Below, in pieces: positions 5,601 through 64,000 of a DNA stretch of 64,000 nt. The notes beneath the pieces were generated by a model. That model was not told where the DNA came from and did no database searches. It saw nothing but the letters and a program-made list of their open reading frames with translations. The stretch's first letter is position 1. Each line of letters starts with the position of its first letter. The DNA is taken from positions 39,604-103,603 of the forward strand of contig JAZARR010000256.1 of NCBI GenBank assembly GCA_037389465.1. Reading direction: 5' to 3'. The translations under genes were made by a program, and so were the position numbers. This stretch comes from Baylisascaris procyonis (taxonomy: Eukaryota; Nematoda; Chromadorea; Rhabditida; Ascarididae).

Positions 5601-8600
5601 GCAAAAGCTTCCCCTAAAGGTGCTGGCGCTGTCAAATGTCTCTGAGATTGAGCTATGCTAAATATGCGATTCCGAGAAGGCATTTTACCGCCTTCTGGAA
5701 GGGCCATTGCAAAATATCAAAAAGACGATTGTGCTAGTAATGAAAGCGCTGATTACTCCATTCGGGAACGAGAACTTCTTCATGAGTTGCTTAGAGAAGC
5801 CTTCGGAAATAGATGAGAAAGGAATGAGCTGTAATATTTATAAATCCCTTTTAATATAATCCTGCAGGTGGTTATTCTTCCAATGAGGTGTTTTTCTCTT
5901 GAAATTTAAGTGTCTTTAGATGGTTATTCGACTATTATAGCTTTGTGTTAGCTGCCGTGTCTCCCGCAGTGGTCGTACCTGCGATGCTGCGCATAGCCAA
6001 GCGAGGTTATGGTGTTGTGTCTGGAGTGCCCACGGTGGTTATCGCCGCTGCGGCCATCGATGATGTATATGCAATAACTGGATTTGGAGCTTTCATATCA
6101 GCTGCTTTCTCTCAAGGTTGTTGTTATTGGCGAATAAATTAACTTACAAAAATCTGCAGTGCACAAACAATTAAAAAATCGAAATTATTGAACGATGTGA
6201 GCATGAAATAAGACAAACTAAAAAGTCATTGAAAGAAGTAACCAAACACGATTTTCATTGCTCTCATTTTCGAGCATCTATTAATCGGTTTTCTGCAATA
6301 CTGATGGTGGCAGAGAATCTGCGCATATCTTGGGAGCAAACGAAATAACTTAACGTCTCCCTGCTCGTTCAGATGGGATATGAGCAAGGGGATGGATTAT
6401 TGGCCATTATTGTTATATTTCTTAGAAGGAATTTGTTGCAACCTTTCTTCTTCTGTTGTAGTTATATTGAATTGACTTCCATTGCTCTTTAATACCGATA
6501 ACTACGAGTAACTGGGTTAATGTGCGAATCCCATGATGTCAAATCGTGTTATAGGAGGCATTATTTGGACCATTTTGCGAGCACCTATTGAAGTAGCAAT
6601 TGGAGTCATTACTGGTGGAACTATTGGTATGTTTCTGGTGATTCAAAGAATGAGTAATTAGTACATGAAACAGAATGGCCAATAGCAAGTATTAAAAGAA
6701 GTTTTGAAACCCAATGGTCAGTAGGAAAAGAGGTAAATAACAGGCTTGCCTGCTGTGTGCTCGAACTGAAGAATACAGTCAGAATTTCAATAAACTGGCA
6801 GTCATCTTATGTAGGTTAGGAGAGAGTCACCTTATGTAGGTTAGATTATATGCCTTCCTTTAGCCGCTGAGGTGTTGCGAGGAGGAAAATAATAAAAGCA
6901 CATGAAAAATGACCACGATCCCGCTAAATGAGTTCAATAGAAACAAGAAAACGGAATTTTCACCTATAGAAGTTGTTGCGTTATACAACTAAGCATTTCG
7001 GGGGGTGTTGAGGGAGTGTGAAAAGAAAAGACAAACGAAATACGGAATACCTTGATTGCAAGCTACATTGAGCAGAAAAAAAGCGAAAGTGTTCATCAAC
7101 GTGTATTGTTTTGGATAATATATTTTCATAAACTCTTATTTTTATAGGTATTCTGTTATGGTTTATACCAGGAAAACATGGACGAGTACATTTTACAAGA
7201 GTGGTTCTACTTATCCAAATTGGTACCACATCGATGTTTGGCACTGAAGTACTCGGTTTTACTTCAGTTGGACCGATCGCCGTGCTTGTATCAGCGCTTG
7301 TTGCTGGATTTCGATGGAAGAAAGAGGACATTAGCGATGAACAAGTGAGCTATTTCTAGTTGGTCTTATTCTTAAATTTGGAAAATAAGTATAAGCATTA
7401 GAAATCGTTAAGCACGCCTTTACCTCATTAGTGAAGATGCTTGTAGTATGCTTGTGGTGCCATTTAATGCTCAGTGGTATAGTCAAGGATGATGCTGCAG
7501 GAAGTGAATTTTAGAGGAATATGCTTCAGAGAGCAATTGAGTGTAAATAAGCTTACATTGAATGACTTTGGCTGTCGCGAATAGCGAGTACATGCATGAA
7601 GGCTCATGCCGTCATGGCGACTCGCTGGCGCCGCTGAATAGCAAAAGACGGTCAGCCGTCTCAGCGGCGCCAGCTAAGATGGACAGCCGATGCATGTGCA
7701 CCGGAAACGAAACAATGCTAAAAGGAATCATGGCCCACAAAAAGAGGCGAGAGACCGAATCGGAAAGGGTCAACGTAATGGAAGGCGGAGTTGAGCAAAG
7801 GGATATAAGCAGCCCAAGCTCAACTCCGCCATTCGCCTGCTAGCCGTCGGCCACTTAGTGGCCTTCAACGCTTCGCCTCCGTCGCCTTCAACAGTACCTC
7901 TTCTTCAACAGTGCCTCACCTTCAACCAGTGCGTCGCCTTCAACAGTGCCTCGCCTTCAACAGTGCCTCACCTTCAACAGTGCGTCTCTTCAACAGCGCC
8001 TCACCTTCAACAGGGCTTCGCCTTCGGTCATCTTCAACAGTGTTTCGCCCTCGTACGCCTGCCATTGCCTCGCTTCCGTTCTACCCTGCTTCCACTTCAG
8101 CGTGATCTACTGAACGTGAGTATTTCGTAATCCTTTCAAAATACCTAGCCCAGCTCGTTCAGTACATGGGGGCTCAAGCCAGAGCGTAACCGTGAGCACC
8201 AATGGCATCCACTGCATACCAAGCGTCTCTAAAAGTGAAAGCTAACCTATTAAAGGCTGCTACCAGCAGCATACGTTTTCCCGACTTGCGTCAGCTCGCC
8301 GCAGAACCTGGCTCACAAGCGGCATTCCGGACAGCCATTTTGCAAGTGGAGGCGGCAATTCGAAAACTCGAACGCCATATTTCCGATGTTGAGGCTGACC
8401 ATAGCGCATGGCACGAATATATAAAGCAGCTACGCACCGTCGCGGAAAAAAACCAACGAAGCTTCTATTTATCAGGCTCTCGTGGAAGCACCAGGTCATT
8501 TTCTGATCGTATTGGGTGAAGCCCGAAACGTGCTTGATGACCTTATTACCGCCAAGCAAAATCTTGAGCTGCACATAACCCGACCAATCTCGCCAAGTGG

Positions 8601-11600
8601 TAGCGTCCCTACGGGAAACAGCACGCCTGTGCACCAACCGCAGCAGACTACGCCTATGAACACGATCCAGTTGCCTAGAATGCAAATTCCGAAGTTCGAT
8701 GGACAATACCGCAAATGGCCACAATTCTGGGCCACGTTTCTTCACACAGTTGACTCCCAACCGCTCGCAGAAATCCAGAAGCTTTCCTATCTGCTGTCTT
8801 TCCTCGAAGGCAAAGCGCTAGAGGCAGTAGGTGGATTCACGGTAGCCCCGGAAAACTATGAAGCCGTCAAAACAACGCTCCAACAACGATTCGGGAGATC
8901 AGAAGTGCTATTGAAGTCATTGTACGCGGAGTTACAAGACACAGCACCCCCCGCAAAGGACCTCGAAGAATGCGTTGCGACCGTCGAGCGTATTCTACAG
9001 CAACTGGAGCAAATGGGAGAAAATGTCGACAATGCGCAAACCGAGCTTTGCATTGAAAAACGGCTCCGCGTTGGGCGCTATTGGAAGTTGAAAAAGCTAA
9101 AGAGGCCGATGCAGCCTGGAGCGTTCAAAAACTGAGGAGCAAACTTCAAGCAATTGTCCGCATTCGGGAGAACATGCGAAGCGTGATCACAGAGAGGGCG
9201 CCATAGGAGAACCGCAAGCCCAAAGACACGACGGAAGGCGAGGACGAAGAAATTCGGGAGGTGCAAAACGCGAAGAATGTTTGAGCCATGCGTCAGCGTT
9301 ACCCGCAGTAGCGAAGCGGCAAATCGAAAGCAGGAAAGCACGCGAATCTAACCGAACGGTATGTGCGTTCTGCAATGAAGACATTGGGCCGATGCTTGCC
9401 CACATCATGCCACTTTGAAGGAGCGGTTTGACCGCACCAGGCAATTACGCCTTTGCTTTAAATGCCTCAGAGAAGGACACAATCAAAACGATTGTACGCG
9501 AAGTGTCTCCTGCTACCATTGCAAGCGCAAGGGACATCCAACGGCATTATGCAAAACGTGGCATCGATCCAGCAGCAGAAAGAAGAGAATCGCCGCGGAG
9601 AGACCCAAGCTCAGATGGTTCGCACAGCGACAGCTATCGCGACACCAGACCAGCAAACACAAGACAGAACGGTGTTACTCCTGTCTACCATTGTCGACGT
9701 GAAGGCGGATGCGCCACATGCGAAGACGCTCAAGGTGCCTGTGCTATTCGATACAGGGAGCGAACGCTCGTTTATCACGGAAGAAATGGTCCAGAAACTA
9801 GGCATAAGGACGGAGCACAAGCAACCGTTGGTTGTCGACGGATTCGGTGGAACGCAAACTATGCGCTGCACGTCTGCGCGCAACAAACTCAAGATGAAGC
9901 GCATTGATGGACGATCGTTCATCATGTTCGCAAACTCAGTACCAAAATTGGTAAGCGAAATTGCAGTCGCCAGGCTAACGGGGAAAACACTACAGCAGAT
10001 CAGTTCGGCAAGGAGCGTCAGTCTACCGACAGTCATGGTCAGGCCCCAGATCCTCGTGGGAACGGACTATTTCCATGAAATCTTCAGAGAGAGCTCCTCA
10101 ACAAAGCTGCCTTCAGGATTCCATTTAATACGCACCTGTCTCGGCGACATGGTCAGCGGAAAAGGACGTAGCAAGCGGTACTGCGGCTTTTCAAAGACCC
10201 TAACAAAACCTTCGAACCGTTATTGCTGTAATGTTGCCAACGTAAAGGATGAGTGGGAAAAATTCTGGTCGCTGGAACTGGTAGGAGTCCAGGACCCCCT
10301 CTACAAACGAACGACGAGCTCGCCACGAAACAATTCAATGAAAGCATTACCTTCAAGGACGGGCGATACTACTGCAGGTGGCCCTGGAAGCGTAATGGAA
10401 ATAAGCTTGGCAGCAACTTCGGCCTTTGTTTGGGTCGCCTAAAGACGTCACTTAAACGGCTCCAAAAGGATCCCGACCTGCTCAAGGCATATGAAAAGAC
10501 ATTCGACGAGCAGCTGAAGATGGGAGTAATCGAAGAGGTCACAAATGCAAAGCCAGAAGGCCCACTGTACTACATGCCACACCAGGCCGTCGTTCGACCA
10601 GACAAGGCTACAACGAAATTCAGGATCGTATACGACGCGTCCTCGAAAGCTTCGGGCCCGACTAGCTCCGATACTCATAACCGCGGACGTCGAGAAAGCA
10701 TTCTTACAGTTAGGTCTGCATGACGACCAACGAGATGCGGTACGATTCATTTGGGTGAAGGACGTAACCGCGCCAGTCGATTCGTCAAATCTAAGTGTGT
10801 TCAGATTTACTCGCGTACCCTTTGGTGTAATCTCCTCACCATTCCTGCTGAACGCCACAATCCGACACCATCTAAAAAGGAAAACGACCGAGTTGAGAGA
10901 GGAGATACAAGACAACATTTACGTGGACAATGTATTCCTGACCGCACAGCAGGAGTCCACGGCAATCATGAAGAGCCAAGAAGCAAAGAGCATCTTTGAA
11001 GAAGCTCATATGAATCTTCGAGAGTTTCGAAGCAACAGTTTAGAAGTCTTTTCTGCATTGAACGAGGACTCAGAACAAGCGCAGCACAGGGCTACGTTAC
11101 TGGGAGTCACATGGGACCTCCGGAACGACAAGATGATCTTCAACACCAAGAAGTGCAGCAAAAGCCCAGCAACCAAACGACAATTCCTTGCATATACGGC
11201 AGAGTTCTACGACCCCCTGGGGCTACTCACGTCGGCCACGCTTCCGTTGAAACTATTTCTTCAACAGTTGTGGAAGAAGGAATACGACTGGGATCAACCC
11301 TTCGACAACGCTGACCGTCAAGGTGCTGAGACACTACTGCAGCGTTTTCAAGGGCAGTCACTCAAGCTGGACCGGAAACTCACAGCGGAATTAGACAAAG
11401 AGTGCGCCGAAATTCACGTCTTCGTGGACGCCTCTAAAGATGCGTACGCCGCCGTGGCGTATTTACGCTCATACAGCGAAAATCGTTATGTAAGCTCACT
11501 GCTGATGTCCAAGAGCAGAGTGGCTCCAATACGCGGCATTACGATCCCGCGGCTCGAACTGATGGCAGCCCTAATCGGCAGCAGGCTGCTCCGTTTCATA

Positions 11601-14600
11601 CAGGAACAGCTGAGGCACACCGGACCGACGTTTCTCTGGAGCGATTCGCAGGCAACCCTGCACTGGATCGCGACAGCTACCACCGTGGACCGCTTTGTCG
11701 ACAATCGAGTTGCCGAAATTCGCAGAAGCCCGGCACAGTTTCGCTACGTTGAGAGTGCCAACAATCCTGCGGACCTAGCATCCCGTGGTCTCACCATCGC
11801 AGAACTTGAGCGATGCATCCAATGGTGGCAAGGACCCTCATTTTTGCAACAAGGAAGCGAGTACTGGCCTACATGCACGGTTCCACACAACCCAGTGACG
11901 CTGGTGACTATCTCAAAACTGCTACTGCCGGCCGGCATTATTGAATGCGAAAGGTTCAGCTGCTTCAACAAGCTTAGACGAATAACAATACAAGTGCTTC
12001 GAGCGATCAAGCGCATGCTGAGAAGCACCCAAGTCCACCTACAACGGCAGTTCTGGGAAGTGGTAAGAGTGGAGGGACCCGCCACGGCGAGCGAACTGGA
12101 GTGGGCAGAGGTTATCCTCATCTCACAGGAGCAAACTAAGGCAGGCGAGGAAGTCGAGCGGAACACCGGCGACGTCGACCTTTATCAGGACGAACGAGGA
12201 GTTTGAGATGCATAGGAAGGCTGCAGCATGCAGCACTACCGGAAGAGACGATTCACCCAGTCTTCCTCCCGAAGTCATCGGCCCTCACTAAACTCATTAT
12301 CCTAGCCCGACACAAGGAATCGGGGCATACTGGAGTGTCACAGACGTTGGCCAGTGTCAGAGAACGCTGCTGGGTTCCACAGGGTCGAGCGACGGTCAAG
12401 CGCGTACTTCGACGACACTGCATGACGTGCCGCAAATGGAATGCACAGCCCTTCAAACTTCCGGCCTTCTCTCCATTACCAGAGGAGAGGACACGTGCAA
12501 CGCGAGCCTTCCAGAACGTTGGCCTGGACTGCATGGGACCTATAACAGTACGCGACTCTGGAGGCCTTTGCAAACGATGGATAGCCCTCTTTACCTGCCT
12601 GGCCACTCGAGCCATCCACTTGGAAACCGCAAACAACCTGTCAGCAGAACAGTTCCTACACGTCTTGAGACGGTTTATTGCCAGGAACGGTTACCCTACC
12701 AGTGTGATACTGGACAACGCGCCTCAATTCCAGTTGGTCAAACAGGTCATGCAGAACGCCGTTGCCACATCTATTACATGGCGATTCATTACGCCCTTCG
12801 CACCCTGGCAAGGAGGAGTATATGAACGGCTGGTAGGCCTAACTAAAACAGCTTTCCGCAAAGCAGTCGGCAGAAGGCTGCTGACCGAGGAAGAATTCAC
12901 AACGTTAGCGATTGAATGTGAAGCTATAGTGAATAGCCGACCACTCACCTACGTAGACTCAGCCATTGGAGAGATACTAAGGCCAATCGACTTCCTCCGA
13001 CCGCGGGCAATTATAGCAGAACGAGAACCAAGCTCCGACAGCGACAAAGACCCAGACTACACAGAAGGCAATCGCGGAAAGCTGCTGAGGCTCTGGAAGG
13101 CAACAGTCGGTAGCTTAGACCGTTTCTGGAAGCTCTGGACGCAAGAATATTTGTTGAGCCTCGGAGAAAGGTACCGCAGGGAACATCAACAGTCCTGCCG
13201 AGTTACGTGCCGTGCACCACGAGAACAGGAAGTCGTCATAGTCGCCGAAGATGGTCTGCCCAGAGCAGAATGGAAGCTAGGCAAAGTTGAAAAGGTGCAC
13301 AAGGACAGCGGCGGGAAAACAAAGACGGCAGACGTCAGAACGCCAAACGGTCATGTGCTAAAGAGACCAGTGAACATGCTCTATCCCCTCGAAGTGTCTG
13401 AGGAAGAAAAGGAAACGCAAATAGCGCCACACAGGGAAGAATTCGTGAAACACCCTGCAGACGGAAACCTGCAGGAAGAGGAAACTGAGGAAGCGGAGGA
13501 GAATCGAAACGAGCGTAAAACTCCCAGAAGATTGTACTCACACACGTTGTCCACAGTAATGGTCGTACTACTCGCAACCTTCGTATTGGCAAGCAGCGCG
13601 CCAGCGAAACCACTGTTTCACATATGCGTCAAACGTGGCCACCGCCTGTGTGTGAAGATGCCCGACAAATTAAACTGCACAGACGTCCGCGAGGAAACAC
13701 ACGACTACCCGCAAACCGTGGAAGTGTTGAACAGAGCGTTCATTTCGGCGAATGCAACTTTCTGCACACAAATAACGCGCACCGTCTGCACCAAGTGTTT
13801 CTTTCGATGGAGTTTGGCTGTCACCCGCGACGAGACAACAGTCCACAACGTCACTCCATCGCAATGTTGGGAGATGCGACAAACACTGGAGCTCAGTGGC
13901 ATACGTCTCGAAGCAATTGACGAAAACCGATGGGCGTCCAGACAGCCAACTGAGTATAGCTACGGTTGGATCGGAACACGATGCCATGCAACCACGAATT
14001 ACCGTATGGAACAGGGAGTAATCAAGCTCTACGATGGCTCAAGTCGTTCATTGGGATGCGACAAAACTCTGGGAAAATGCGTCACAGCCACGGAGACGAT
14101 ACTGTGGGACCCGAGCAAAGTGGCCGATCAATGTCCTTATCGAACGCTGGGAAAGGTTTCCGCTCAAGTATCAAACCGATTCATCACAATCCCTTCAATG
14201 CAAGCCGTATTCGTCAGAAACAGAGATACGCAGAACGGTACAAGCGTCGGCACAATATGCAAATTTCGGAGAGCCGAGATGATGAAAAACGGAATCACTA
14301 TAGAATTCAGTCCCGAAGGACAGCTTTCTCGAGAAGAACGAAATCGTGTGCTCAGCGGGAGGACGCTGTTTGTCGAATAACTATCAGAAGAAATCAATAA
14401 GAAAAGCGACCTCTCCGTGAACGCTAAGTTACAATTCCTGTGGAACAGCCTCAATGAACGAGAACAAGGAGTGACTCGGGAAATTCGACACAGAACTTGT
14501 GAGCAACACAACCGCCTCCTTTGGCTCATCGAAGCTCTGAGCAGAACTGACCCAACTAAGGCAGCGCGAATACTCCTCAAACGGATGGATATCACTGCAG

Positions 14601-17600
14601 AGAATATAGGAGACCTGCTGAAAGTATTCCCATGTAAGAAACTGGAGATATCCAAGGTCTTCATAGACCACAAAGTCGGCGGCAAGTGAGACCACAAAGT
14701 CGGCGGCAAGTGCTACCGAGATCTCCCGGTACGCTACAAGGACAGGATCTTGTTCGTCCAGCCAAGATCACAGGAACTCAAGACCGCAGCGGAAGAAATC
14801 GCCCGTAGCGAGATCAGAACGAAACAGGACAAAAGAATTGCGGAGGAATGGGCACGTCAAACAGACGAAGAGAAACCAATTTTCGACGCGCCACCGCTCA
14901 CGGACATATCTGAGGAAAGGCTTCAGTCCATGCTGAACATGTTCGAGAGGGCGCACCAAGCATGGGAACAACCCTCAAAGGAAAGGGAAAAGTCGATGGC
15001 CGACTCCATACGGGACGAAGCGGAGGAAATTATCGAGGCTGCCAGCGAAACACTCGACAAATCCACTGTCACTATCGCGAAGGAACTCGAGGACATCGCC
15101 TCGCAATGGCTGTGGATCATAGTTGCGGCGATCGCGGTGGGATTAGGAGTCGCAGGCGCCGCGGCGGCATACTTCGGGCGACAGTACGTCCTCTACCTGA
15201 CGGGATGCTGCCGTGTAAGAAGTTGACAGAAGAAAAGAAGAGCGACTGGAGCAGCACATGAAGAGACAGAAACTCCCACGAGGATGCAGAGGTTTGAACC
15301 GATCTGGGTGTCTCTTGCAAACTTCCAAGGCCGCGGGAGTGTCGCGAATAGCGAGTGCATGCATGAAGGCTCATGCCGTCATGGCGACTCGCTGGCGCCG
15401 CTGAATAGCAAAAGACGGTCAGCCGTCTCAGCGGCGCCAGCTAAGATGGACAGCCGATGCATGTGCACCGGAAACGAAACAATGCTAAAAGGAATCATGG
15501 CCCACAAAAAGAGGCGAGAGACCGAATCGGAAAGGGTCAACGTAATGGAAGGCGGAGTTGAGCAAAGGGATATAAGCAGCCCAAGCTCAACTCCGCCATT
15601 CGCCTGCTAGCCGTCGGCCACTTAGTGGCCTTCAACGCTTCGCCTCCGTCGCCTTCAACAGTACCTCTTCTTCAACAGTGCCTCACCTTCAACAGTGCGT
15701 CGCCTTCAACAGTGCGTCGCCTTCAACAGTGCCTCACCTTCAACAGTGCGTCGCGTTCAACAGTGCCTCACCTTCAACAGGGCTTCGCCTTCGGTGGTCT
15801 TCAACAGTGCTTCGCCCTCGTACGCCTGCCATTGCCTCGCTTCCGTTCTACCCTGCTTCCACTTCAGCGTGATCTACTGAACGTGAGTATTTCGTAATCC
15901 TTTCAAAATACCTAGCCCAGCTCGTTCAGTACATTGGCTCTTAAAACGTAAAATGGCTAATAGCGCTAAAATGAGTGTCTTCTGGCGCAGAATCATTTAA
16001 TTATAACGGCTACATGTTGTCTTTGCTGGTCATTAAGGTTATGTACAAAATGAAAGTAAGTTAAGTAATGCTCAAGACTATAATAGATAAGGATGAACTC
16101 TTCAAGGGCGGTAGTGCGGTGGAAGAAGATGCATTAGGGATGCTATGGGATTTCGTTTTACAGCCAGTGCTATTCACTTCAATTGGTTTCGAATTGAATA
16201 TTACGAAGGTAAGTTGTTTTATAAGTTTTTTTTTTTCACCTGATTTGTTCGAAATTCTGCAGTCAAAGAGGAAAACTGGTAATGTTGGTTGTATTGGATA
16301 ATAATCCGTTTAGTATTGGCACATCTTTTATTTACAAATCGAACGATTCGACTGTTGTTCCTTTCAATAATAACCTATTTTTCACCATATCTTTTAAAAT
16401 AAGGCGCTTCTTTTCAACTCAAGAATGCTTCACTAGTTTGCCTTATAGCGTTGAAATTGATTGCATCTAGCAAGAAACTTAGCCACTCCTTCAATTTTCC
16501 GTAGCAAATAAATTTCAGTTTAAGGGTATTAAATTGACGATCTGCAGTAACAAGCAGTAACCTTCATAAGTTTCGATGGTGAGATGATATCCCACCAATA
16601 AACATTGATAATGCTTAAGCAGGCATCTTTTTGAGGCGAATTTCATAGAGTCAACAGCTCTAAAAACTACTTCCAGGGCAGACGATTTTAATACTTCGTG
16701 CGCTGCTCAAGAAGCATCTCAAGTCAATGGCTTCTTGAAGCTGATGTTTAAACAAGGGATTTCAGGGTCCTACTGCGCTTCAGGAGGAAGAGGTATGACT
16801 GCCGATCTTCTTTCTGGAAACTGCCACCTCCGTCTTCTCCCTTCCCCAACCTTCAAAAACTCATTTATCGACTGCGCGATAAATCAACAGAACTCAAAAA
16901 AGATGGTCTTATTAAAGAAAGAGAATTTTTAAGGTGGGAACGAAAGCCTTTCTTGGCGTCATCGTGATCTCAATCGGTTTAATTTCTCGTATGATTGCTG
17001 CTTTTTGTGCAACATTCGGTGCTCGATTTAAATGGAGAGAATGTGCATTCATCGCATTCGCTTGGATACCAAAGGCTACCGTACAAGTACGATTAGCTTT
17101 TCATCTAGATTATTGCAGCCAATTAACAAATTTTTATAAACATGATGAGCATTTTGTTGAAACAGCTAGCTTCTATGCGTGAAAGTCCCTTTGTTGAACC
17201 TTATAATGTTCGAAAGTCGGCCTTTTTTCTACTTTGTTTAAGTGAGCAGAAGTTCATTTTTACTTGAAAATATCTCGCTGTTTTCTATAGGCACACTTCC
17301 TTTCCTGTCAGAAATTTTTCAAAGGACGACTTGCCTATCACGCTACGGATAACAGAGAAAAGAAGCGACATCTTTTCGCTTAGAATGAACCATCTTAAAT
17401 TCATTTACTATGCAGATTTCTGTGCTATTCTATTAGTGTGAATGATTGCAGGCAGCGTTATCACCGATTGTGCTCGATATGGCCATAGCTGAATCGATAC
17501 AAGATGAAAGCCATCTAACTGCTGGCTTGATTATTCTCACCGTTGGTGTGCTGAGCATTCTTATATCAGCGCCTTTAGGTGCATTCTTCATTCACATTCT

Positions 17601-25294: not shown

Positions 25295-25479
25295 GGTCGG
25301 CGCACTTAGCCAAAAAGAGACGGAGAGAGACCGCGCGCGTCCTCAGCGAGACGGAGAGAGACCGCGCGCGTCTTCAGCGAGCGACGCGGCACTGGTCACT
25401 CTGAAATAAATCGTCGCAATAAATGTGAAAATATACAGTAAGGAAATGAGATTCGAACAACGGATTTCGACACATTCGA

Positions 25480-26105
25480 AAGAGCATTAAAGGCTCTATC
25501 AGAATCAAAAATAATCTCGGACAAAAACAAGAACTTTTCTATTAGATCGATCATTTATATGACGTGCAATTGAGAAAAATTGCATGGTCATCGATAAATG
25601 AGGGCCTATAACTGTATAAAGGAACAAGATTTGGGAAGAGTGACTAGGTACATTCGAAAGAGCATTAAAAGCTCTATCAGAATCAAAAATAATCTCGGAC
25701 AAAAACAAGAACTTTTCTATTAGATCGATCATTTATATGACGTGCAATTGAGAAAAATTGCATAGTCATCGATAAATGAGGGCCTATAACTGTATAAAGG
25801 AACAAGATTTGGGAAGAGTGACTAGGTACATTCGAAAGAGCATTAAAAGCTCTATCAGAACCAAAAATAATCTTGGACAAAAACAAGAACTTTTCTATTA
25901 GATCGAATTTTTATATGCAGTGCAATTGAGAAAAATTGCATAGTCATCGATAAATGAGGACCTATAACTGTATAAAGGAACAAGATTTGGGAAGAGTGAC
26001 TAGGTACATTCGAAAGAGCATTAAAAGCTCTATCAGAATCAAAAATAATCTCGGACAAAAACAAGAACTTTTCTATTAGATCGATCATTTATATGCAGTG
26101 CAATT
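25480..26105 (-). repeat. 178-bp tandem repeat array, left arm (about 3.5 copies)
   Basis: Unit of 178 bp containing AAAGAGCATTAAAAGCTC and TGCAATTGAGAAAAATTGCA. Copies differ by a few substitutions and by a variant with CGAATTTTTATATGCAGTGC instead of the ATCGATCATTTATATGACG form. Short open frames across it arise only from periodicity. Confidence 0.9.
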
Positions 26106-26555
26106 GAGAAAAAATAGACGTGCTGACATGTAGAGGCGATGGAAGAAAGAAATCGCTCGTTGAACTATGGAAATCCTATTACTGGTTCGAAGTGGCAGCC
26201 GCTGTCGTTTCTTGTCAGAATCGTCGGTCTCTGTCGTTGAGGCGAAGGCAACATCTGGAATGTTAAATATAATGATGATCACGACGAAAGCATACTACAT
26301 AAGTAATGGAAGTTTTGTATAGCTTGAATTAATAACATTAAAGATATAATTTTTTCTCTTTCTTAAATTTCGGTGAGTTTGGTGCTATTTCAACTGATAG
26401 CTTATCGTGGAAAAAATCAGAGATGCGCAGTCTATGTTTGACGATAATGTAGGAAATATAGCCTGCCGAGCCGGATGTAGCTATTTCTTCGAAGTATCCT
26501 TGCCAGATTCCATTCATCCCAGTGTACACGTAGATGTTCAAGTCGAAGCGAAGCA

Positions 26556-27028: not shown

Positions 27029-27464
27029 TGCTTCGCTTCGACTTGAACATCTACGTGTACACTGGGATGAATGGAATCTGGCAAGGATACTTCGAAGAAA
27101 TAGCTACATCCGGCTCGGCAGGCTATATTTCCTACATTATCGTCAAACATAGACTGCACATCTCTGATTTTTTCCACGATAAGCTATCAGTTGAAATAGC
27201 ACCAAACTCACCGAAATTTAAGAAAGAGAAAAAATTATGTTATTAATTTATACAAGCTATACTTATGCAGTATGCTTTCGTCGTGATCATCATTATATTT
27301 AACATTCCAGATGTTGCCTTCACCTCAACGACAGAGACCGACGATTCTGCCAGAAACGACAGCGGCTGCCACTTCGAGTAGTAGGATTTCCATAGTTCAA
27401 CGAGCGATTTCTTTCTTCCATCGCCTCTACATGTCAGCACGTCTATTTTTTCTCAATTGCACGT

Positions 27465-29320
27465 CATATAAAAATTCGATCTAATAGAAAAGTTCTCGTT
27501 TTTGTCCGAGATTATTTTTGGTTCTGATAGAGCTTTTAATGCTCTTTCGAATGTACCTAGTCACTCTTCCCAAATCTTGTTCCTTTATACAGTTATAGGC
27601 CCTCATTTATCGATGACCATGCAATTTTTCTCAATTGCACGTCATATAAATGATCGATCTAATAGAAAAGTTCTTGTTTTTGTCCGAGATTATTTTTGGT
27701 TCTGATAGAGCTTTTAATGCTCTTTCGAATGTACCTAGACACTCTTCCCAAGTCTTGTTCCTTTATACAGTTATAGGCCCTCATTTATCGATCACCATGC
27801 AATTTTTCTCAATTGCACGTCATATAAATGATCGATCTAATAGAAAAGTTCTTGTTTTTGTCCGAGATTATTTTTGATTCTGATAGAGCTTTTAATGCTC
27901 TTTCGAATGTACCTAGTCACTCTTCCCAAATCTTGTTCCTTTATACAGTTATAGGCCCTCATTTATCGATGACTATGCAATTTTTCTCAATTGCACTGCA
28001 TATAAAAATTCGATCTAATAGAAAAGTTCTTGTTTTTGTCCGAGATTATTTTTGATTCTGATAGAGCTTTTAATGCTCTTTCGAATGTACCTAGTCACTC
28101 TTCCCAAATCTTGTTCCTTTATACAGTTTTAGGCCCTCATTTATCGATGACCATGCAATTTTTCTCAATTGCACGTCATATAAATGATCGATCTAATAGA
28201 AAAGTTCTTGTTTTTGTCCGAGATTATTTTTGGTTCTGATAGAGCTTTTAATGCTCTTTCGAATGTACCTAGTCACTCTTCCCAAATCTTGTTCCTTTAT
28301 ACAGTTATAGGCCCTCATTTATCGATGACCATGCAATTTTTCTCAATTGCACGTCATATAAATGATCGATCTAATAGAAAAGTTCTTGTTTTTGTCCGAG
28401 ATTATTTTTGGTTCTGATAGAGCTTTTAATGCTCTTTCGAATGTACCTAGTCACTCTTCCCAAGTCTTGTTCCTTTATACAGTCATAGGCCCTCATTTAT
28501 CGATGACCATGCAATTTTTCTCAATTGCACGTCATATAAATGATCGATCTAATAGAAAAGTTCTTGTTTTTGTCCGAGATTATTTTTGATTCTGATAGAG
28601 CTTTTAATGCTCTTTCGAATGTACCTAGTCACTCTTCCCAAATCTTGTTCCTTTATACAGTTATAGGCCCTCATTTATCGATGACTATGCAATTTTTCTC
28701 AATTGCACTGCATATAAAAATTCGATCTAATAGAAAAGTTCTTGTTTTTGTCCGAGATTATTTTTGATTCTGATAGAGCTTTTAATGCTCTTTCGAATGT
28801 ACCTAGTCACTCTTCCCAAATCTTGTTCCTTTATACAGTTTTAGGCCCTCATTTATCGATGACCATGCAATTTTTCTCAATTGCACGTCATATAAATGAT
28901 CGATCTAATAGAAAAGTTCTTGTTTTTGTCCGAGATTATTTTTGGTTCTGATAGAGCTTTTAATGCTCTTTCGAATGTACCTAGTCACTCTTCCCAAATC
29001 TTGTTCCTTTATACAGTTATAGGCCCTCATTTATCGATGACCATGCAATTTTTCTCAATTGCACTGCATATAAAAATTCGATCTAATAGAAAAGTTCTTG
29101 TTTTTGTCCGAGATTATTTTTGATTCTGATAGAGCTTTTAATGCTCTTTCGAATGTACCTAGTCACTCTTCCCAAATCTTGTTCCTTTATACAGTTATAG
29201 GCCCTCATTTATCGATGACCATGCAATTTTTCTCAATTGCACGTCATATAAATGATCGATCTAATAGAAAATTTCTTGTTTTTGTCCGAGATTATTTTTG
29301 ATTCTGATAGAGCCTTTAAT
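27465..29320 (+). repeat. 178-bp tandem repeat array, right arm (about 10.4 copies)
   Basis: Same unit as the left-arm array in opposite orientation, with three times as many copies. The variants alternate in a higher-order pattern: the stretch from about 27830 to 28185 is nearly repeated at about 28540 to 28897. Confidence 0.92.
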
Positions 29321-29507
29321 GCTCTTTCGAATGTGTCGAAATCCGTTGTTCGAATCTCATTTCCTTACTGTATATTTTCACATTTATTGCGACGATTTAT
29401 TTCAGAGTGACCAGTGCCGCGTCGCTCGCTGAAGACGCGCGCGGTCTCTCTCCGTCTCTCTCTTGCGCCTGCGCTTGTGGCTAATGTTACCCTCACCGTG
29501 GCTGAGG

Positions 29508-29737: not shown

Positions 29738-31620
29738 TTAGCCGACAACGGCATTTTCGTTATGTTCAGTGTTTGCTTCTTCTCGACACTCCCCGCGGGA
29801 AGTTTTCGTCGTTCGCATTGTTCTGGTCTCTCGGAGAATCGAACTTCTTAGTGGAGAGAAAATCATTTCTGGTTTACTTTCCACTCTTTCCTTCAATTGC
29901 ACCTCTTGGAGTGTCCTCTGTGGAATAGTATGGCTTCGTGGCGCTTTCTGCAGTTCCGCTCCTGTGTCTTCCGTTTCTGGCACCCGAAGTTGCACTTGCA
30001 CTTGTTTCGTCCGCCGTTTAATTTCGCATCTACACGTCAGCACTGCGCCTATTCCAAGTGCGATGAGGATGGAAACTGTTATTGTGGTTTTAATCGCGAC
30101 ACCACTGACATCATCCAGAGCTTCTTGAATTTTGTGTGTGGCCACGCCAATTTCTCGTTCGGCTTCCCACAGTAGTCGTTCACCTTCATCACGTGGGGAA
30201 TCAATTCCGCTTTTCCGTATCCCACTTGAAATTGTGCCACCTTCCTTGAAACGTTTCATCTCTGCTGAAAGCATGGACAAGGCGAGGCTGATTCTTTCTT
30301 TCTCGATTGATGGCAAAGCTCCTGCCTTGAACGTTTGATGCCGAATTGCTGGGATATTTCTTGAAGAGAAGTTATCGAAGCTCTCTATCCCCTTTTCATT
30401 GCAAGGATAGATGAGCAATGAATTTGTGTCCCGTAGAGTTGCGCAGACATCTTCCCTTTGCAGTAGCATTCTCCCAGCCACAGTTGGAGGTGCTGCTTTG
30501 GCGTTGATTGTGAGTGCATTCGTTAATTCACAAACTGATCTCCACACAGCCCGAAACTTTTCGTTAATCTGATCTTTCAAAAGCTCATAAACAAATCGTA
30601 GCTTTGCGTTTATGGGATCATGTGAAGCTTCCGATGATTGAGGCGAATTGGCAAAAATTGTCGCATATTCTACACACGGTTTACGTGTGTCTCCGTCAAT
30701 ATCGTCGATGATGGGTCTGTTCGCTTCAAATGCAACCAATTCATCCGATTAATCTCGACTGGATGAGATTTTATCCATTGCCTGAAGTCTCCTGAGACTC
30801 TTGTGTCATTGAAGACGACGATGAAGTTGTTGTCCATCCAGTGCACTCCACTCAAGCTGCATTCACTGAAGGACCCAGGGTATTCTCAAAGGTAAAGGAA
30901 GCTTCCAAATCGGGAACAAGTACAGAGTGAGAAGTTGCGAAAACTTCATGCTCTCCGAGAGATTGAAAGTGGCAAATTGATTTTGCCTCTGAAGCATTCC
31001 ATAGGAGAGTGTAGTCCGTGAGACAGAAACTATCCGTGATTTTACATTTTGTTGTGAAGTCCGCGGTGGTTGTGATCAATTTGTCGTCATTGTAAATAGC
31101 TAAGAAGCCGAATTGAACGACGTAGTTTGACGTTGTGATACAACGTGTGCCTCACAGTCCGTAAGAGAATCCTTCGGGAAAGTTTGTCTCCCAGCGGTCA
31201 CGTGCTCGTTGTACCATTGGACTTTCGTTGAACTGTTTGTTAGTAGCCAACTCTGAACATACTTGGAGGGAGATCGCACTAACATTTTTATAATCGGCCG
31301 TTAACTGCAGAGTCCAGTGGAGAAATGAGTTCGTGCGCAATGTACGAGAAATGTTGGTGCAGGACACGGCTGGAATCAAAACGTGAGTGCGGCTGTAAAT
31401 TGTGGCCTTTGTCCAGACTGTGGTCTCTGAATTGCTGATTTGCGAACAGTTTTGAAGGTGGGGATATCTCAATTGCACCCCGGCTTTCGATGCGTTGTAC
31501 CACAATTGTGCCGACGCGGCGTTTATCCTACTGCTAACAACGGTAATTAACATGAGGCAAGCGACAACCGATAGATTCACGCCGAGTTGGCGCGCTTTGG
31601 AACGGATGAGCGGACCTCCG
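29738..31620 (-). pseudogene. BEL2 env-like gene, broken
   Basis: Follows integrase, as in BEL1. It starts with a hydrophobic signal-like stretch near 31530-31590, then a Cys- and Asn-X-Ser/Thr-rich ectodomain in several frames. A long open frame (29738-30739) follows, with a transmembrane helix near 30030-30090 and a charged cytoplasmic tail of about 90 residues. At least two breaks lie between 30740 and 31160. The role is inferred from order and topology. Confidence 0.55.
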
Positions 31621-34600
31621 TGAACTGAGGTCGAATTGTCCTTGCCCGAATTAGCGTCTTCATGGCTTTCTGGATTGCTAGGCTCCTCCGACTCCGAGCG
31701 TGAGGCGTCACTATCAGTGATCTCAAGTGGAAAAAGGAGGTTTACTGGACGAGTAATTTTTCGTTGAAAACCACACTGAAGTTCGACGGAACGAATTTTC
31801 CCGTCTTTTCCTTCGATTAGTTTTGAAATGATGCCAAGCTTCCATAAAGCTCTTGGCTTTGATTCATCGTGAATAAGCACTACATGACCCGGTTGAGGCT
31901 CGTTAGCGTTAACTAACCTTGGGGTCCGATGTTGACGTTGCGAGCGTTCTCGTAAGGCAAGTAGATACTCGGTCTCCCAGACCTTCCAGAATCGTTCAAC
32001 GAATCTGTTGGATTCTGACCATGCATCCAGTAGTTTGTCGCAGTTGTTAATTGTTGGGTAGTATTCTTCTCCAGTATCTGAGTTTGCTTCCGTTTTTACG
32101 ACAACTTCCATTGCCTTGTTTGGTGTCGCAGCAATAAGATCGATTGGTCGAATCACTTGTAGTGACTCCTTATCGACATATGTCAAAGGTCTTGAGTTGA
32201 CGATAGCTTCGCACTCGCTCAGTAAGGTTTGCAGAAGTTCGTCGTCGACAAAGGCTGTACCAATCATTCATCGAAGGGCTTTCTTCGTGATTTGAACCAT
32301 CCTCTCGTAAATGCCCCCTTGCCAGGGAGCCCTTTCTGTGATATGTGTCCATCGAATTTCATTTAGGATCTGGTCAGTCGCCCTTTCCGCGAGGAGGAAC
32401 GTGGAAGCGTTGTCAGACAATATTGTTCTCGGTTGACCTCTACGAGCTATGAATCGACGTAGGCATAATAAGAAGGCTTGACTTGAACAGTCGGAAACGA
32501 CTTCGAGATGAACAGCCCGGGACCACAGACACGTAAAAAGTGCTATCCAGCGTTTTGTCCCACCCTTTCCATTTTCTTCGACGCTCTTGTTTTTGACATG
32601 AATGGGCCCGAAATAGTCAAGTCCGACGTCTGCGAAAGGTTTGCCAGGAACGGTGCGAGCAGTTGGTAATGGTGGAAACTTAGGAAGTCGAAACGGTCGT
32701 GCACGCCAGCGTCGACAGTCCATGCAATATCGGTTGATCGTCCTTTGGACAGTTGCCCTCCCCTGAGGGATCCAGAATAGTTGTCTCATTGTATTGAGTG
32801 CTTGAGCAGATCCAGCATGAGCGAGTCGTTTGTGTGTTTCCAAGATCAGCAGACGAGTCACAGTACTATGTTTGGGCAGGAAGATTGGACGGATTGACGC
32901 TGCTGGCAGCCTGGAGGTTATTATTCGTCCTCCACATCTATACACCCCGTCACTGCAGGACATTTCGAAAGAGTTAATTTCAGTTTCACCGATAACCTTT
33001 TGCGCGTCGCGAATGAGGCACTGTTTTGCTTCCTTGAAGTCGGTTGCAGAGAATGGTCCTGTCGCGCTGATTTTCATCCAGCAGGCCGATGAATGAGGTT
33101 TACTGATTTTCCGAAGAAATCGGAGTGTGGTTGCTGTAGTTCTTAGCAGGCGGTTCCAGCTGCTAAATCGATCGGCATTGAAAACGTGCTCAGCTGAATG
33201 TTGCCTCTCGAGTACCTCACAGACGGTGCTATCGACAACTTTTGCACCGCTTGCTGGATTTGGATCAGTTGGTAGTCCAGTCTGATCAGGCCAGTTGTCC
33301 GGTGCTTTTGAAATAAAAGAGGGTCCTTGCCACCACTGTAAGTTGTTAACGAGTTCTTCTGGTTTGAGACCTCGTGTTGCCAGGTCCGCTGGATTCAGAT
33401 CTCCTGGTACGAAGCGAAATTGAACATTCTTTACGGCTCTGATTTTTTGTATTTGGTTTCGGACAAACCGATCTCGTTCATTGTTGAAGATTACCCAAGA
33501 TAATGCAATTTGACTGTCGGACCACAAATACAGTGGAACGTTTAAATTCATTTGCCTGCTAACGTAATCGATTAGTCGGGAGCCTATAAGAATTCCTAGA
33601 AGCTCGAGACGCGCAATTGTCATTCCTTTGATGGGCGCTAGACGATTCTTTGACATGACAAGAGAAGAACCTTCTGTGGAGGTAGCGAACACTACGGACG
33701 CGTATGCCGCTTTAGAAGAGTCGACAAAGCAATGAAGAGACTTCGGTTGCCCAATTTGCCGTTTGATGCTAATAGGTTGACTATGCCATCCTTGAATAAG
33801 TGTTTTTGCTCGCTGAAACTCAGCTTTCTTGAGCGTATCGTCCCATCCGTACTCCACGTGCCAGAGCGTTTGGATAAAGACCTTGATCGGCAGCGTTGCT
33901 GGTGTCAGATACCCAAGTGGGTTGAATACGCTGGCTACCCACGATAGCAACGTTCGCTTTGTCATGTCACCGAACTCGAATTTTTTTAATATAAACGAAA
34001 TTTTGTCTGTGCGCACGTCCCATGGGATGTCGAGAATTTTTGCATTTGTCTCGTTTTGACGATCCTCTACTTTCCAACGCTCTCGAAGTGCTGCGGAATT
34101 TGAATTTAGCTCTCGTAGATTCATTCCCGCAAATTGGAACAGTTTCTTGCTTGCATCACATTTCTTTGCAGCCTCGTCAGTAGTTGCTGCTGTGAGCATG
34201 ATGTTGTCCACGTACATGTTGTGCAGCAGCTCCTGTGCAACAGCTGAATCGTTGTGTAGTTTGAGGTGATGGCGAATTGTAGTCGCGAGAAGAGAAGGTG
34301 AAGCGACCACGCCGAAAGGGATTCTCGCGAATCGAAATATACGCAGATTGTCCCTCGTCGGTTGGCTATTCAGATTCTTCAGCCACAGGAAGCGAGTAGA
34401 GTCGCGATCACTTTCCCTCAAACCGATCTTAAAAAGGCTTTCTCCAAATCTCCCATGACTACTACTGTCGGAACTCGAAACTGCAGTAAAATACCTGTCA
34501 AATCAGGGAGATATATTGGCCCTCGCAAGATCGCGTCATTCAAACTATAACCATTTTTTCTCATTTTGCTCGATGCGTCGTAAACGAGTCGAATTTTCGT

Positions 34601-59846: not shown

Positions 59847-61195
59847 TCAATCAACATAGCATTCATTACGAATGAAGGTCTCTTCATATCGCTTCCACTT
59901 GTCCCGAATCAATGCTTCTCTGATCCAGTTGGTTCCTGCGGTCTTTTTTAAAGAATCGCTCCACCTCACTGCAGGTCGGCCTCTATTTCTTTTGTCAATC
60001 CGTGGTGTCCATTCTGTTATTCGCTTCACCCAGTCGTCATTTTTCACTGCGGATATCTTCGCCGCCCATCTAAATTTCCTCATTCCGGCCTCGGTCACCC
60101 AATCCTTTACCTTTGTTACACCTCGAAGCCATTCGTTGGTTTTTCTCTCCACTAATTTGATTCCTGTCATGATTCTTTCCATTCTTCTTTCTGCCACCGC
60201 TAGCAGCTTGCGCACTGTTTTAGTTGTTACCCATGTTTCAGAACCGTTGGGAACTGTTGGCATCACGCTTTTTTCGAACAGTTTCCCCTTGAGACTCATC
60301 GGTACTTTTTTCTCACGATAGAAGTCTTTATTCTTAAAAAATGCTTTCCAGCCTTGTTTGATCCTGCGTCGTACATCTGCTTCCATTCCTCCGCTCATTG
60401 TTACACATCTGCCCAAGTAAATAAATTCATTTACACTTTCAATCTTCTCTCCTCTTACAACGATTGCCGACTTCAGCTCTCTGTTGCTCATCAGCTTCGT
60501 TTTGGAGGTGTTTAATCGTAAGCCAACTGCTCCACTTCTCACCCCGAGTTCTCTGACCATTTTCTTTAATTGGTTGAAGTTGTGAGATATCAAGACTACG
60601 TCGTCTGCGAACCTCAAGTGCGAAATTCTTTTCCCGTCTACGTTCACGCCCTTGTTTTGCCAGTCTATCTCGTCGAACACGAGCTGTAGAGCTGCGTTGA
60701 ACAGCAGCGGAGATACGCAGTCTCCCTGCCGTACTCCTCTCTTTACCTGTATTGGTATTTGCCTTTCATGCACGAAAATTGTAGTTGTCGATTTACGTTG
60801 GATTTCTTGAAGGATGGAAATTATTGAAGGGTGTATCGAGGCACTTTCCAAAGACTTCCACAGAGCGGCGTGTTCGACAGAATAGAAGGCCTTTTCGTAG
60901 TCTACAAACAGCAAGTAAAGGGGCAAGTTGTACTCTTTGGTTTTCTCGATAAGCATGGTGAGCACATGGATTTGGTCGATTGTTGACTTGCCCGGCCTGA
61001 AGCCTGCTTGCTCGATATCTTGCTTCTCTTCAATTTGTTGCTGCAATCTTTTGCATAAAACTTTCGAGAAACACTTTGAGATTGTTGGTAGGAGTGATAT
61101 AGGGCGATAGTTTCTGATATTATTTAGATTGCCCTTCTTCGGCAACAGAATTGTTTTTGAGAAGGCAAAATCTTCAGGGATGTGTTGATGTTCGA
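59847..61195 (-). pseudogene. RTE reverse transcriptase, C-terminal part
   Basis: An open frame of about 450 codons reading back from the nested insertion. It has KTILLPKKGNLNNIRNYRPI, QAGFRPGKSTIDQI, LFVDYEKAF (first Asp), GVRQGDCVSPLLF and the catalytic FADDVVLIS. A C-terminal domain (VSGSETWV-like, KTNEWLRGVTKVKDWV) and stop at 59847 follow. It would be joined to the upstream half at 62522 if the insertion were absent. Confidence 0.85.
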
Positions 61196-61197
61196 TG

Positions 61198-61268
61198 TAT
61201 TGACCACCCTTTTTGTTGGTGGGTGTGTAGTGTGTATGTGTGCGATGATGTGTAAAGGTGGTCAATAA
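61198..61268. other. Hairpin at one end of the LTR-like insertion
   Basis: TATTGACCACC just inside the terminus is matched by GGTGGTCAATA about 60 bases in. It forms an 11-bp stem with a GT-rich loop. Confidence 0.7.
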
Positions 61269-61735
61269 TTAGATTATATATGTTAGTTTGTCCCCAAAGA
61301 TTCGTGAACAAACAATAGAGAACGAATAAGACAAAGGAAAATTACGGATTAACAAATTGGCCTACGTTACTGTTGCTGTCCGATGTCGACTGAGCTGCTG
61401 CTCGCTTCTCGGTACCCGCTTTTGTCACTTCCGAGTTGACGTGTGCGTTTCTGATCCACCGTCGACCTGTCTCTTTGCCACTGGTGTCGATCTAACCACA
61501 ATCGCCGCTGGAGTCGACGATTCTGACCACTGAGCTCCCTTCTGTGACCCGTCTAGTTGTCGCGACACTCCGGTTTAATGACGCCTTCCGCTCGCCAATG
61601 ATCACCTTTTGGGATTCTGTCAGTTACCCAAGAATACTTCACGTTGAGGTGGCTGCTCTTAGAATACCAATATCAGATGCTGTTGGTGCAACCGCCTTGT
61701 GCACCTTTCCACTGCTGTGTGAGCCACGCCTCAAT

Positions 61736-61757
61736 CTCAAACTTGGGTAATTAAACC
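61736..61757 (-). other. Perfect 22-nt copy of nematode spliced leader SL1
   Basis: On the minus strand the bases start GGTTTAATTACCC and end AAGTTTGAG, identical over all 22 positions to the conserved SL1 exon. It is not an SL RNA gene: the leader is followed by ATTGAGG, with no GT splice donor. An AATAAA directly precedes it. It lies about 410 nt downstream of the TATA box of the LTR-like insertion. Confidence 0.93.
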
Positions 61758-61867
61758 TTTATTCGCATTTAAACAATCAAAACGCGACGCAAAAACATTT
61801 ACATATCAACAGTAAAGGATAATATGATAGTAGGTTAACATGTGATTAAGTAAACTCATATATGGTT

Positions 61868-62105
61868 ATAAGACAAGTACGTAATGTTATAACTTCTTAT
61901 AACCCGACGGAAAGAACATGCATACTTATTAGTATAACTCAACGAAAAGAATACGCATACTCATTAGTAAATCACATAACTGATGCTGAGTAGAATTATA
62001 ACATTACACTTAAGCGAACTCAAGTACAATTATCTCCCGTACGTAATGTTATAATACCTTATAAGCCGACGGAAAGAATACACATACTTATTCATAAGCA
62101 AAAAC
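61868..62105. repeat. Partial tandem duplication in the LTR-like insertion
   Basis: Segments of the form ACGTAATGTTATAA...CGACGGAAAGAA...CATACTTATTA occur twice (about 61876 and 62040), with a shorter third partial copy near 61930. Confidence 0.7.
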
Positions 62106-62165
62106 GTTGAGCGCACAACACCGATTCACGTTACACATTGTACAGTTACCGAAACTTTGGGGTTT

Positions 62166-62177
62166 GTTTATATAGCC
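62166..62177 (-). promoter_or_regulatory. Putative TATA box of the LTR-like insertion
   Basis: Minus strand GGCTATATAAAC, about 340 bp from the TGTCGCGG end, as expected for a U3/R boundary. Confidence 0.5.
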
Positions 62178-62521
62178 TTCCTGCTGACATCTTCTTGAAG
62201 CTTATGGTCCGCCCCTTCTTTGTGCCATTAGTTGAGTTGACAATTAACATTGTTCATGGGATGACTTGATCCGCATGTCCTCATGCCCTTTTGAGAAACA
62301 AAGCGTTCCCATGCCTTGTGAGCTTCCCACGCGCGTTGCCCTCTCTTTGAGCTCAACACTTCTGAGTGGCCGACTAACAATCTCACTTTCATAATCCATT
62401 TGCACTACTTCGTTTCTCATAACTTTCTCACGTCCGCAAAATTAACTTTTGGAGCTTTAATCATCTTTCACTTTATTTATTTCTACGCACTCATTCACTC
62501 GCGCGAAGCCGCGACATTCGA

Positions 62522-64000
62522 TCATGTTGTTGAAGAGACTTTTCAGCGGTGTTATTAATAGTTCCTTCCCGAGTTTCAGCATGTCGCCAGTTAATCCATC
62601 GATACCTGGCGCCTTCCCGTTTTTCACGCTTTTGATCGCGTTTCTTATTTCTGGGTCGATGATTTGTAGAAATGGTTCATCGCTGTTCCTTGCAACAAAC
62701 GTGCAATCGGTCTCTCCTCCATACAGTTTCGTATAGAATTCCTGAATGATTTTATCAATTTCTTGCGTTTCTGTCGTGAGTGATCCGTCACTTTTCCTCA
62801 GCTCAATTATTCTTTTCTTGTTGTCAACTAGCGAACTTCTCGCCCTCTTTAATTTACCGCTAGCAGCAGCTTGCTTCATTATATTCAGATATTTCTGATA
62901 ACGGTTTTCGCATATCTTCTTTTTGATTAGCTTATTAAGTTCGCAGAATTCCAGGTTAGTTCGAAAATTAGCATCTCGTCTCCTCTTTCTTCTTTTTTCA
63001 AGCAGTACTTTTATTTCTTCCGTAAGAGGCGATGTTTTTGGCCTTGTCGTCGTAGCCATTTGCGCGGCTTGGCTGATTTTTGTAGTAATATTTGCATAGG
63101 TCGGCTCGCTCTCTGTTAAATTGGACTGTTGCAATGCGTATCTATATAAATTTGCGTCGAAAAACCTTTCAGTGCTTTTCTTCCTTTGTCGTCTGGCCCA
63201 TAAACGTTTATCCTTTAGCTTAAGTTTTGCTCTAACTAGGCGGTGGTCGCTGCCTGTCTGGAGGTGGCTCTACTTCGGTGTCTTTGACGATTATTGTCTT
63301 GTTCACCAAGATGTGGTCTATTTCGTTTTTTGCATCGCCGCTGGGGCTTCTCCAGGTCCATTTTTTACCACGTCTTTTTTTAAAAAACGTATTGGTAACT
63401 TTCATCCCGTTGTTTTCGCAAAAATCAACTAGTTGTTGTCCGCGTGGATTCCGCGCTCCTAGTCCAAAATTTCCGACTGACTGCTCTCCCGGTGTTCGTG
63501 TTCCAACTATAGCGTTAAAATCGCCCATTATAACGGTGAATGTAGATCGCTCTCCATTAACTACCTCAGTCAGATCATCCAATATTTGGGTATATTCTTC
63601 ATCAGTTTGATCTCCGTGAGGTGCATATATTTGATTAGTCGCATGTTCGTTTTCCTATTGATCTTAACTTTGATTTGCGCAATTCTTGTACAGTGAGAGG
63701 AGAATGACAATATTTTAGCTTTCAATCTTTCGAAACATAAAATCCGACTCCACCTCGCGATGATTCTGGATGATTGGTAGTTAATGGAGAGCGATGCTAA
63801 TTTTCGAACTAACCTGGAATTCGTGCAACTGATTCATCCTCTCCCCGATAAAACAAACAGTTACCGTTTGGCCGGTCGACGGCCTTTGCCTTTCCTTCTT
63901 ACTTCTGCTAGGCCGATTACATCGAAATTGATTTTAGTTGCCTCTTCTTCCAGTTCTTCCAACCGTTCATTCGATAGCAGCGTCCTTGCATTATACTTAC
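62522..64000 (-). pseudogene. RTE endonuclease and start of reverse transcriptase
   Basis: From the window end: APE-type endonuclease pieces (FDVIGLAEVRRKGKG, MGDFNAIVGTRTPGEQS, EIDHILVNK), then a charged linker, then the RT start with SVKNGKAPGIDGLTGDMLKL, ending at the nested insertion. Frame changes near 63135-63230 and 63600-63900 break the protein. Confidence 0.8.

Follow-up and report, generated by a model that had tools for sequence, protein, structure and literature searches.

SL1 spliced-leader sequence at a fixed place in the LTRs of three BEL/Pao families of Baylisascaris procyonis, and its possible part in element copying

The window considered here is the whole stretch of 64,000 nucleotides that was analyzed, from a contig of the nematode Baylisascaris procyonis, and it contains a LINE reverse transcriptase ORF that has been split by the insertion of an LTR. 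The 5' part of this ORF (62522–63269, minus strand) and its 3' part, which includes RVT_1 (59847–61190, minus), form a single open LINE frame when the two flanks are joined, with about 130 codons across the insertion site. Alignment to the LTRs that enclose gag/pol in other copies gave the inserted sequence as a 1321-bp LTR of BEL/Pao family A (61196–62516, minus; boundaries TGTCGCGG...CAATACA), flanked by two copies of the target-site duplication TTCGA (61191–61195 and 62517–62521). An earlier note on this DNA had placed the SL1 sequence within a TG...CA insertion, and the TGT...ACA ends and 5-bp duplication of the LTR agree with that description. Because no primer-binding site follows it, the LTR is regarded as a solo LTR; the same immediate flanks occur on two further contigs (L032, L033).

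The exact SL1 22-mer (61736–61757, minus), recognized by sequence match and by sibling contexts and proposed below as the start of R, lies directly downstream of AATAAA (61758–61763, minus), a candidate poly(A) signal at the end of U3 that is found upstream of SL1 in 29 of 30 LTR loci (L031–L060). It is followed by an extra ATTGAG (61730–61735, minus), apparent from comparison with sibling LTRs, and further into U5 by the anti-SL1 box CTTGGGTAA (61624–61632, minus), complementary to SL1 nt 8–16, and by a second complementary stretch, ATTAAACC (61572–61579, minus; SL1 nt 1–8), which is exact in 12 of 23 rows. The insertion had also been credited with its own TATA box; a candidate exists, TATATAAAC (62166–62174, minus), but at 417 nt upstream of SL1 it is too distant for a start to be placed at SL1. 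Elsewhere in the window lie a second BEL/Pao element (7573–15933), whose 594-bp LTRs (by TG...CA ends) are 98% identical, contain 17-bp tandem repeats and are associated with the duplication TTGGC, and a third BEL/Pao pol fragment (29738–34502, minus); no SL1-like site with up to six substitutions was found in the LTRs of the former or at the latter. Arrays of a 178-bp satellite, apparently in opposite orientations, occupy 25472–26113 and 27447–29334.

The match to SL1 is complete (22/22) and is the sole site in the window with three or fewer mismatches; a rescan of the window allowing up to six substitutions found no further SL1-like site. The earlier note was right that such a match is too unlikely for chance, none having appeared in 100 shuffles, and right that the lack of a donor sets it apart from an SL RNA gene: the window SL1 runs into ATTGAGGCG, with ATTGAG rather than GTAA after it and hence no GT donor, and an Rfam scan of the window gave no match at gathering score. 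Across the 272.8-Mb assembly there are 981 exact SL1 22-mers (333 plus, 648 minus), as against 0 matches for a reversed control pattern. If SL1 followed by GTAA is taken as an SL RNA gene, 666 belong to that class and 315 do not; the next base is other than G after 43 of the 981. At least 189 of the 315 copies without GTAA fall in the 35-nt contexts of BEL/Pao LTR families A, B and C. SL1 was also seen in a diverged repeat (L001, L004, L019 and L020; around 1501–1522). At L001 it stands between 28-nt inverted-repeat arms that match the other loci (L004, L019, L020) in both orientations, and the RTGTGCYA motif of this repeat follows 14 exact genomic SL1 copies. The search of viral contigs for SL1 returned 0.

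Comparison of flanks among the first 30 loci distinguished three SL1-bearing LTR families. Family A, that of the window, has LTRs of 1.27–1.33 kb in measured loci, with the candidate TATA at −417 and AATAAA at −6 relative to SL1. Family B LTRs are about 1.14–1.15 kb long (the 3' end being approximate), usually spaced about 6.57 kb apart, with a weak TATA-like site at −37 and AATAAA at +608 and none just upstream of SL1. The family C LTR is 1225 bp long and carries AATATA or AATACA at −7. On their Pfam matches A, B and C are assigned to BEL/Pao: DUF1759, DUF1758, Peptidase_A17, RVT_1, H2C2 (an integrase zinc finger) and DUF5641 were found in L064 (A) and L065 (B), with rve below cut-off, and DUF1759 and DUF1758 in L066 (C), of which three scanned pieces gave no RVT_1 or Peptidase_A17 match. 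The LTRs have the TG...CA ends and short target duplications of this group. A 5-bp duplication was present at 9 of 19 family A loci examined, representing six separate sites including the window's; loci without it mostly have a primer-binding site after the LTR or lie within arrays, and one (L048) is solo-looking with no duplication. A family C copy is flanked by ACGTA. Candidate primer-binding sequences after the LTR are TGGTGCCACGAGCCGGGA in A and B and TGGTGCGTCTGG in C. The members of eight LTR pairs (seven B, one C) are 96.8–100% identical, indicating that the copies compared are young. Among 6 proteins found for the gag-like ORF of family B, the nearest named ones come from Anisakis simplex (61% identical across 64% of the query) and Ascaris lumbricoides (68% across 37%), matches that point to a probable ascaridoid host. 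Head-to-tail family A units with a period of about 7137, in which neighbors share an LTR, were observed at G000:C22:38945–62007. Regularly spaced family C places were observed on SL RNA gene contigs (G000 C89, C109, C191–C194), for example in an array at C89:2715916–2734855 with a period of about 6313, and some of these contigs carry SL RNA variants such as G22C.

SL1 occupies the same place in sibling LTRs. Places were sought with 35-nt contexts that include SL1, allowing up to three mismatches, a procedure that strongly changed SL1 copies escape; places that were not fetched were called LTRs from these contexts and their spacing. SL1 is exact in 52 of 66 family A places, in 86 of the 100 listed among 138 family B places and in 51 of 61 family C places. 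Among 77 pairs of neighboring same-strand places 4.5–9.5 kb apart, some of them in tandem arrays, both members are exact in 67, nine share a variant, three of the nine lying in a single tandem array, and one pair differs. Selection by LTR similarity alone, in a search that scored 40 of 123 candidates, yielded loci L031–L060, in which SL1 is exact in 27 of 30. Thus a fixed and mostly exact SL1 is present in three families and in both members of most pairs, and is lacking in the LTRs of another BEL/Pao element of the window. The earlier note had left a choice between a one-off capture, which an SL1 confined to this single copy would have indicated, and an SL1 kept in the R region of the element. 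With siblings in three families carrying the leader, and in both LTRs, an SL1 limited to one copy is not what is seen, and the second option is favored; the use in strand transfer that was attached to it is something we infer, as set out below.

The downstream edge of SL1 varies in a restricted manner. At 24 of the 30 loci L031–L060, SL1 or a variant of it is followed directly by GCGTGG. The window insertion (three loci) has ATTGAG between the two, an LTR at another site (C270, L034) has TTTGAG, and both C101 LTR loci have GTTTGAG. Among 26 distinct family A rows, SL1 and the 300 nt downstream of it show no indel of two or more nucleotides besides these 6- and 7-nt repeats of the SL1 end. The TTTGAG repeat would be the residue expected if splicing of host SL1 had used the internal CCAAG and not the terminal TTTGAG; such splicing would fit less well with the 7-nt repeat of C101, whose end is not on an AG. 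Either slippage or the attachment of an incomplete strong-stop DNA to the end of R would account for both. Genome-wide, exact SL1 with TTTGAG in the next 16 nt occurs at four places, namely the C101 and C270 copies and one on C195 that looks unrelated to them, and the genome search found no full SL1–SL1 tandem. L030, a family B LTR 92% identical to L005, differs strongly in the last 15 or so bases before SL1, as if its U3 edge had been rewritten.

Complementarity to the leader is present within U5 as boxes of 9–11 nt, CTTGGGTAA in A and CAAACTTGGG (SL1 nt 11–20) in B and C. Of 200 shuffled U5 sequences, those with a box as good numbered 3 for A, 2 for A27, 1 for B, 1 for C and 4 for C21, and 38 for A22. 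The A box is exact in all 22 distinct family A rows (a count that leaves out a 23rd row, a C-family LTR inside L035), is exact in the diverged L027 and is one base off in L022. The B box is exact in seven of nine distinct rows and one base off in two; that of C is exact in L017 and in the C-family LTR of L035, and in L021 it differs by one base, which gives a G-U pair. In the SL1-less window element, complementarity of the LTR to SL1 nowhere exceeds 5 nt. Predicted folds pair SL1 with the box in six of nine leaders (A, A39, A27, B, C and C21), and such pairing is absent from the predicted folds of A22, B23 and B30.

How the leader entered these LTRs can be approached through its surroundings. 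The A flanks align with neither the B nor the C flanks, and the U5 regions of B and C are similar (0 of 60 shuffles as good). When LTR flanks were compared with those of SL RNA genes, the best of 14 comparisons (C upstream, A downstream) had 2 of 60 shuffles as good, and neither match recurred in C21 or A22. An origin by recombination with an SL RNA gene was discounted for want of a recurring common flank, and a retrocopied host mRNA was rejected because in sibling copies the LTRs enclose gag/pol. Since only the 22-nt exon is common, and trans-splicing yields just such an exon with other sequence attached, capture via trans-spliced RNA is strongly indicated as the best origin of SL1 in the LTRs.

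The RNA of an LTR element must carry one and the same sequence at its 5' and 3' ends. By exchanging the 5' end, trans-splicing should block replication. The reading that we prefer, at a probability of roughly one half, is that the 22-mer is the host SL1 exon, placed at or near the U3/R boundary of BEL/Pao LTRs, and that trans-splicing would restore the 5' end of the element RNA. Transcription would begin upstream of SL1, and the leading part of the transcript, an outron, would be removed by SL1 trans-splicing at an acceptor that the final bases of the LTR's own SL1 would provide (TTTGAG/G). The mature RNA would then begin with host SL1 followed by U5, and its 3' end, derived from the 3' LTR, would carry the SL1 encoded there, such that strong-stop cDNA ending in anti-SL1 would still match at the first strand transfer. 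The trans-splicing step would thereby restore itself in every cycle, and the element RNA would keep the host leader with its cap. A start of R at SL1 fits the anti-SL1 boxes of U5, the duplications at the SL1 edge and, in A, the AATAAA just upstream; the signals at −6 in A (AATAAA) and −7 in C (AATATA or AATACA) would allow polyadenylation close to the SL1 end. That SL1 currently starts R, with trans-splicing restoring the same sequence, is nevertheless argued less firmly than its entry through trans-spliced RNA.

Several observations count against a start of R at SL1. TTTGAG is a poor match to the nematode acceptor consensus. Family B has no poly(A) signal near SL1, the predicted folds pair SL1 with the box in only six of nine leaders, and the 30 nt upstream of SL1 in A are conserved equally well, with 2 variant cells of 780 as compared with 3 of 660 for SL1 itself (30 loci). 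Variation in family A U5 is higher (162 variant cells of 7788 in 26 distinct rows; Fisher p 0.0017 for SL1 versus U5, to be taken only as a guide, since the two counts draw on different sets of related rows). Five variants of SL1 (T8G, T9C, A14G, A21G and G22C) are shared by the two members of a pair. Two of the five are known from SL RNA genes (G22C in 11 genes, T9C in one), T8G, A14G and A21G having been sought there and not found, compared with three of four control variants from single LTRs (T3C, C13T and G16A present, T18C absent), and recopying of SL1 from host SL RNA in each cycle is thus unsupported. A21G and G22C abolish the proposed acceptor AG and yet stand in both LTRs of a pair, so that these lineages, if they retrotransposed, used RNA unspliced at that point; LTR conversion or tandem duplication may instead have placed these variants in both LTRs. 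For elements with pair-shared variants, inheritance of the LTR's SL1 copy would be at least as good an explanation.

Inheritance could be extended to all copies, SL1 having been acquired by an ancestral LTR in one or a few events via trans-spliced RNA and being now ordinary LTR sequence with no current splicing. We consider this unlikely, albeit a serious alternative. It draws support from the pair-shared variants that are absent from SL RNA genes, from the conservation of SL1 in A no better than that of the adjoining 30 nt upstream, from the similarity of B and C in U5, and from pol pieces in which A is nearer to B (44% identical) than to the SL1-less window element (37%); its identity to the third window fragment is 34%. 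The same comparisons weigh against it, since A and B are only 44% identical in pol and have flanks that do not align, yet both carry SL1 at 22/22, and B is as near to the SL1-less element (43%) as to A, so that a single capture would need losses; these identities leave SL1 with no clear tie to one clade. The anti-SL1 boxes also suggest use.

In Ascaris, the promoter of the SL RNA gene includes the SL1 sequence itself. Transcription could start at SL1 nt 1 in the LTR, giving an RNA that carries the leader with no splicing at all. TATATC 37 nt upstream of SL1 in B, a weak common TCGC...TTGTTT motif about 30 nt upstream (discerned by eye), and AATAAA at −6 in A, which would make a short R, speak for such a start. 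Apart from the AATATAA adjoining SL1, however, TATA-like sites come no nearer than −105 in A, where the canonical one stands at −417, and no nearer than −55 in C, upstream DNA has no recurring match to that of SL RNA genes, and edge duplications are not predicted, leaving the explanation improbable. Slightly more doubtful still is trans-splicing that serves only the capping and translation of mRNA, with the reverse-transcribed RNA conventional, started at an upstream TATA and having a long R that contains SL1. The candidate TATATAAAC in A, the acceptor-killing variants in both LTRs and the precedent of Cer1 in Caenorhabditis elegans, whose 2.4-kb mRNA occurs with and without SL1 and whose 8-kb RNA is not trans-spliced (PMC3315495), are consistent with it, but an LTR-encoded SL1 at the splice position is left unexplained. 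Chance, an assembly artefact or an SL RNA gene can be dismissed as having next to no probability, given 315 exact genomic copies lacking GTAA, 0 of 100 shuffles and the absence of a donor at the window copy.

An association of SL1 with PAO elements is already known from Brugia malayi, in which 120 SL1 sequences were reported outside SL RNA genes, 60 being no more than 1 kb from a PAO element, with two same-strand copies sometimes flanking an element; the authors infer that leaders were joined to expressed element RNA, which then integrated (PMC7181701). SL1 stands beside PAO elements there as it does here, but the available portion of that account contains no in-LTR position, family comparison, role in R or strand transfer, anti-SL1 box or edge duplication (PMC7181701). 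Nematode BEL/Pao elements such as Tas of Ascaris lumbricoides have gag/pol domains like those of A and B, and the available portions of these accounts say nothing of SL1 within an LTR (PMC554778; PMC3118150); the terms 'leader' and 'trans-splic' are absent from the main text of the former (PMC554778). Cer1 resembles A–C in being an LTR element with SL1 trans-splicing, in its case of the 2.4-kb mRNA, but is Gypsy/Ty3-related rather than BEL/Pao, and the available text describes no SL1 in its LTR; the lack of trans-splicing of its 8-kb RNA counts against a start of R at SL1 (PMC3315495). In dinoflagellate retrogenes a relict leader derived from reverse-transcribed, trans-spliced RNA is likewise a genomic remnant, although these are host gene copies, unlike the mobile-element part seen here (PMC12014239). 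Our literature search, with subscription journals mostly outside it, found no fixed in-LTR SL1 across families, R-region model, part for SL1 in strand transfer, anti-SL1 boxes or edge duplications. As a whole, a system in which a host leader serves as the start of R, with its 5' copy supplied by trans-splicing, the LTR copy kept for annealing, dependence on the SL1 snRNP, a box that folds or recruits the leader, and perhaps repeated origin, seems possible on these sequence patterns, though we would put it at somewhat below even odds.

The presence of a host leader at a fixed place in several LTR families suggests that the host's leader-adding reaction is used for copying. A leader encoded at that very place would resolve the conflict between trans-splicing and the need for matching RNA ends, and would make host RNA processing part of the copying cycle of the element. 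Element RNAs would in addition gain the leader that is borne by many host mRNAs, and SL1 in LTRs would provide a genomic mark by which the trans-splicing of retroelement RNA may be followed in nematode genomes.
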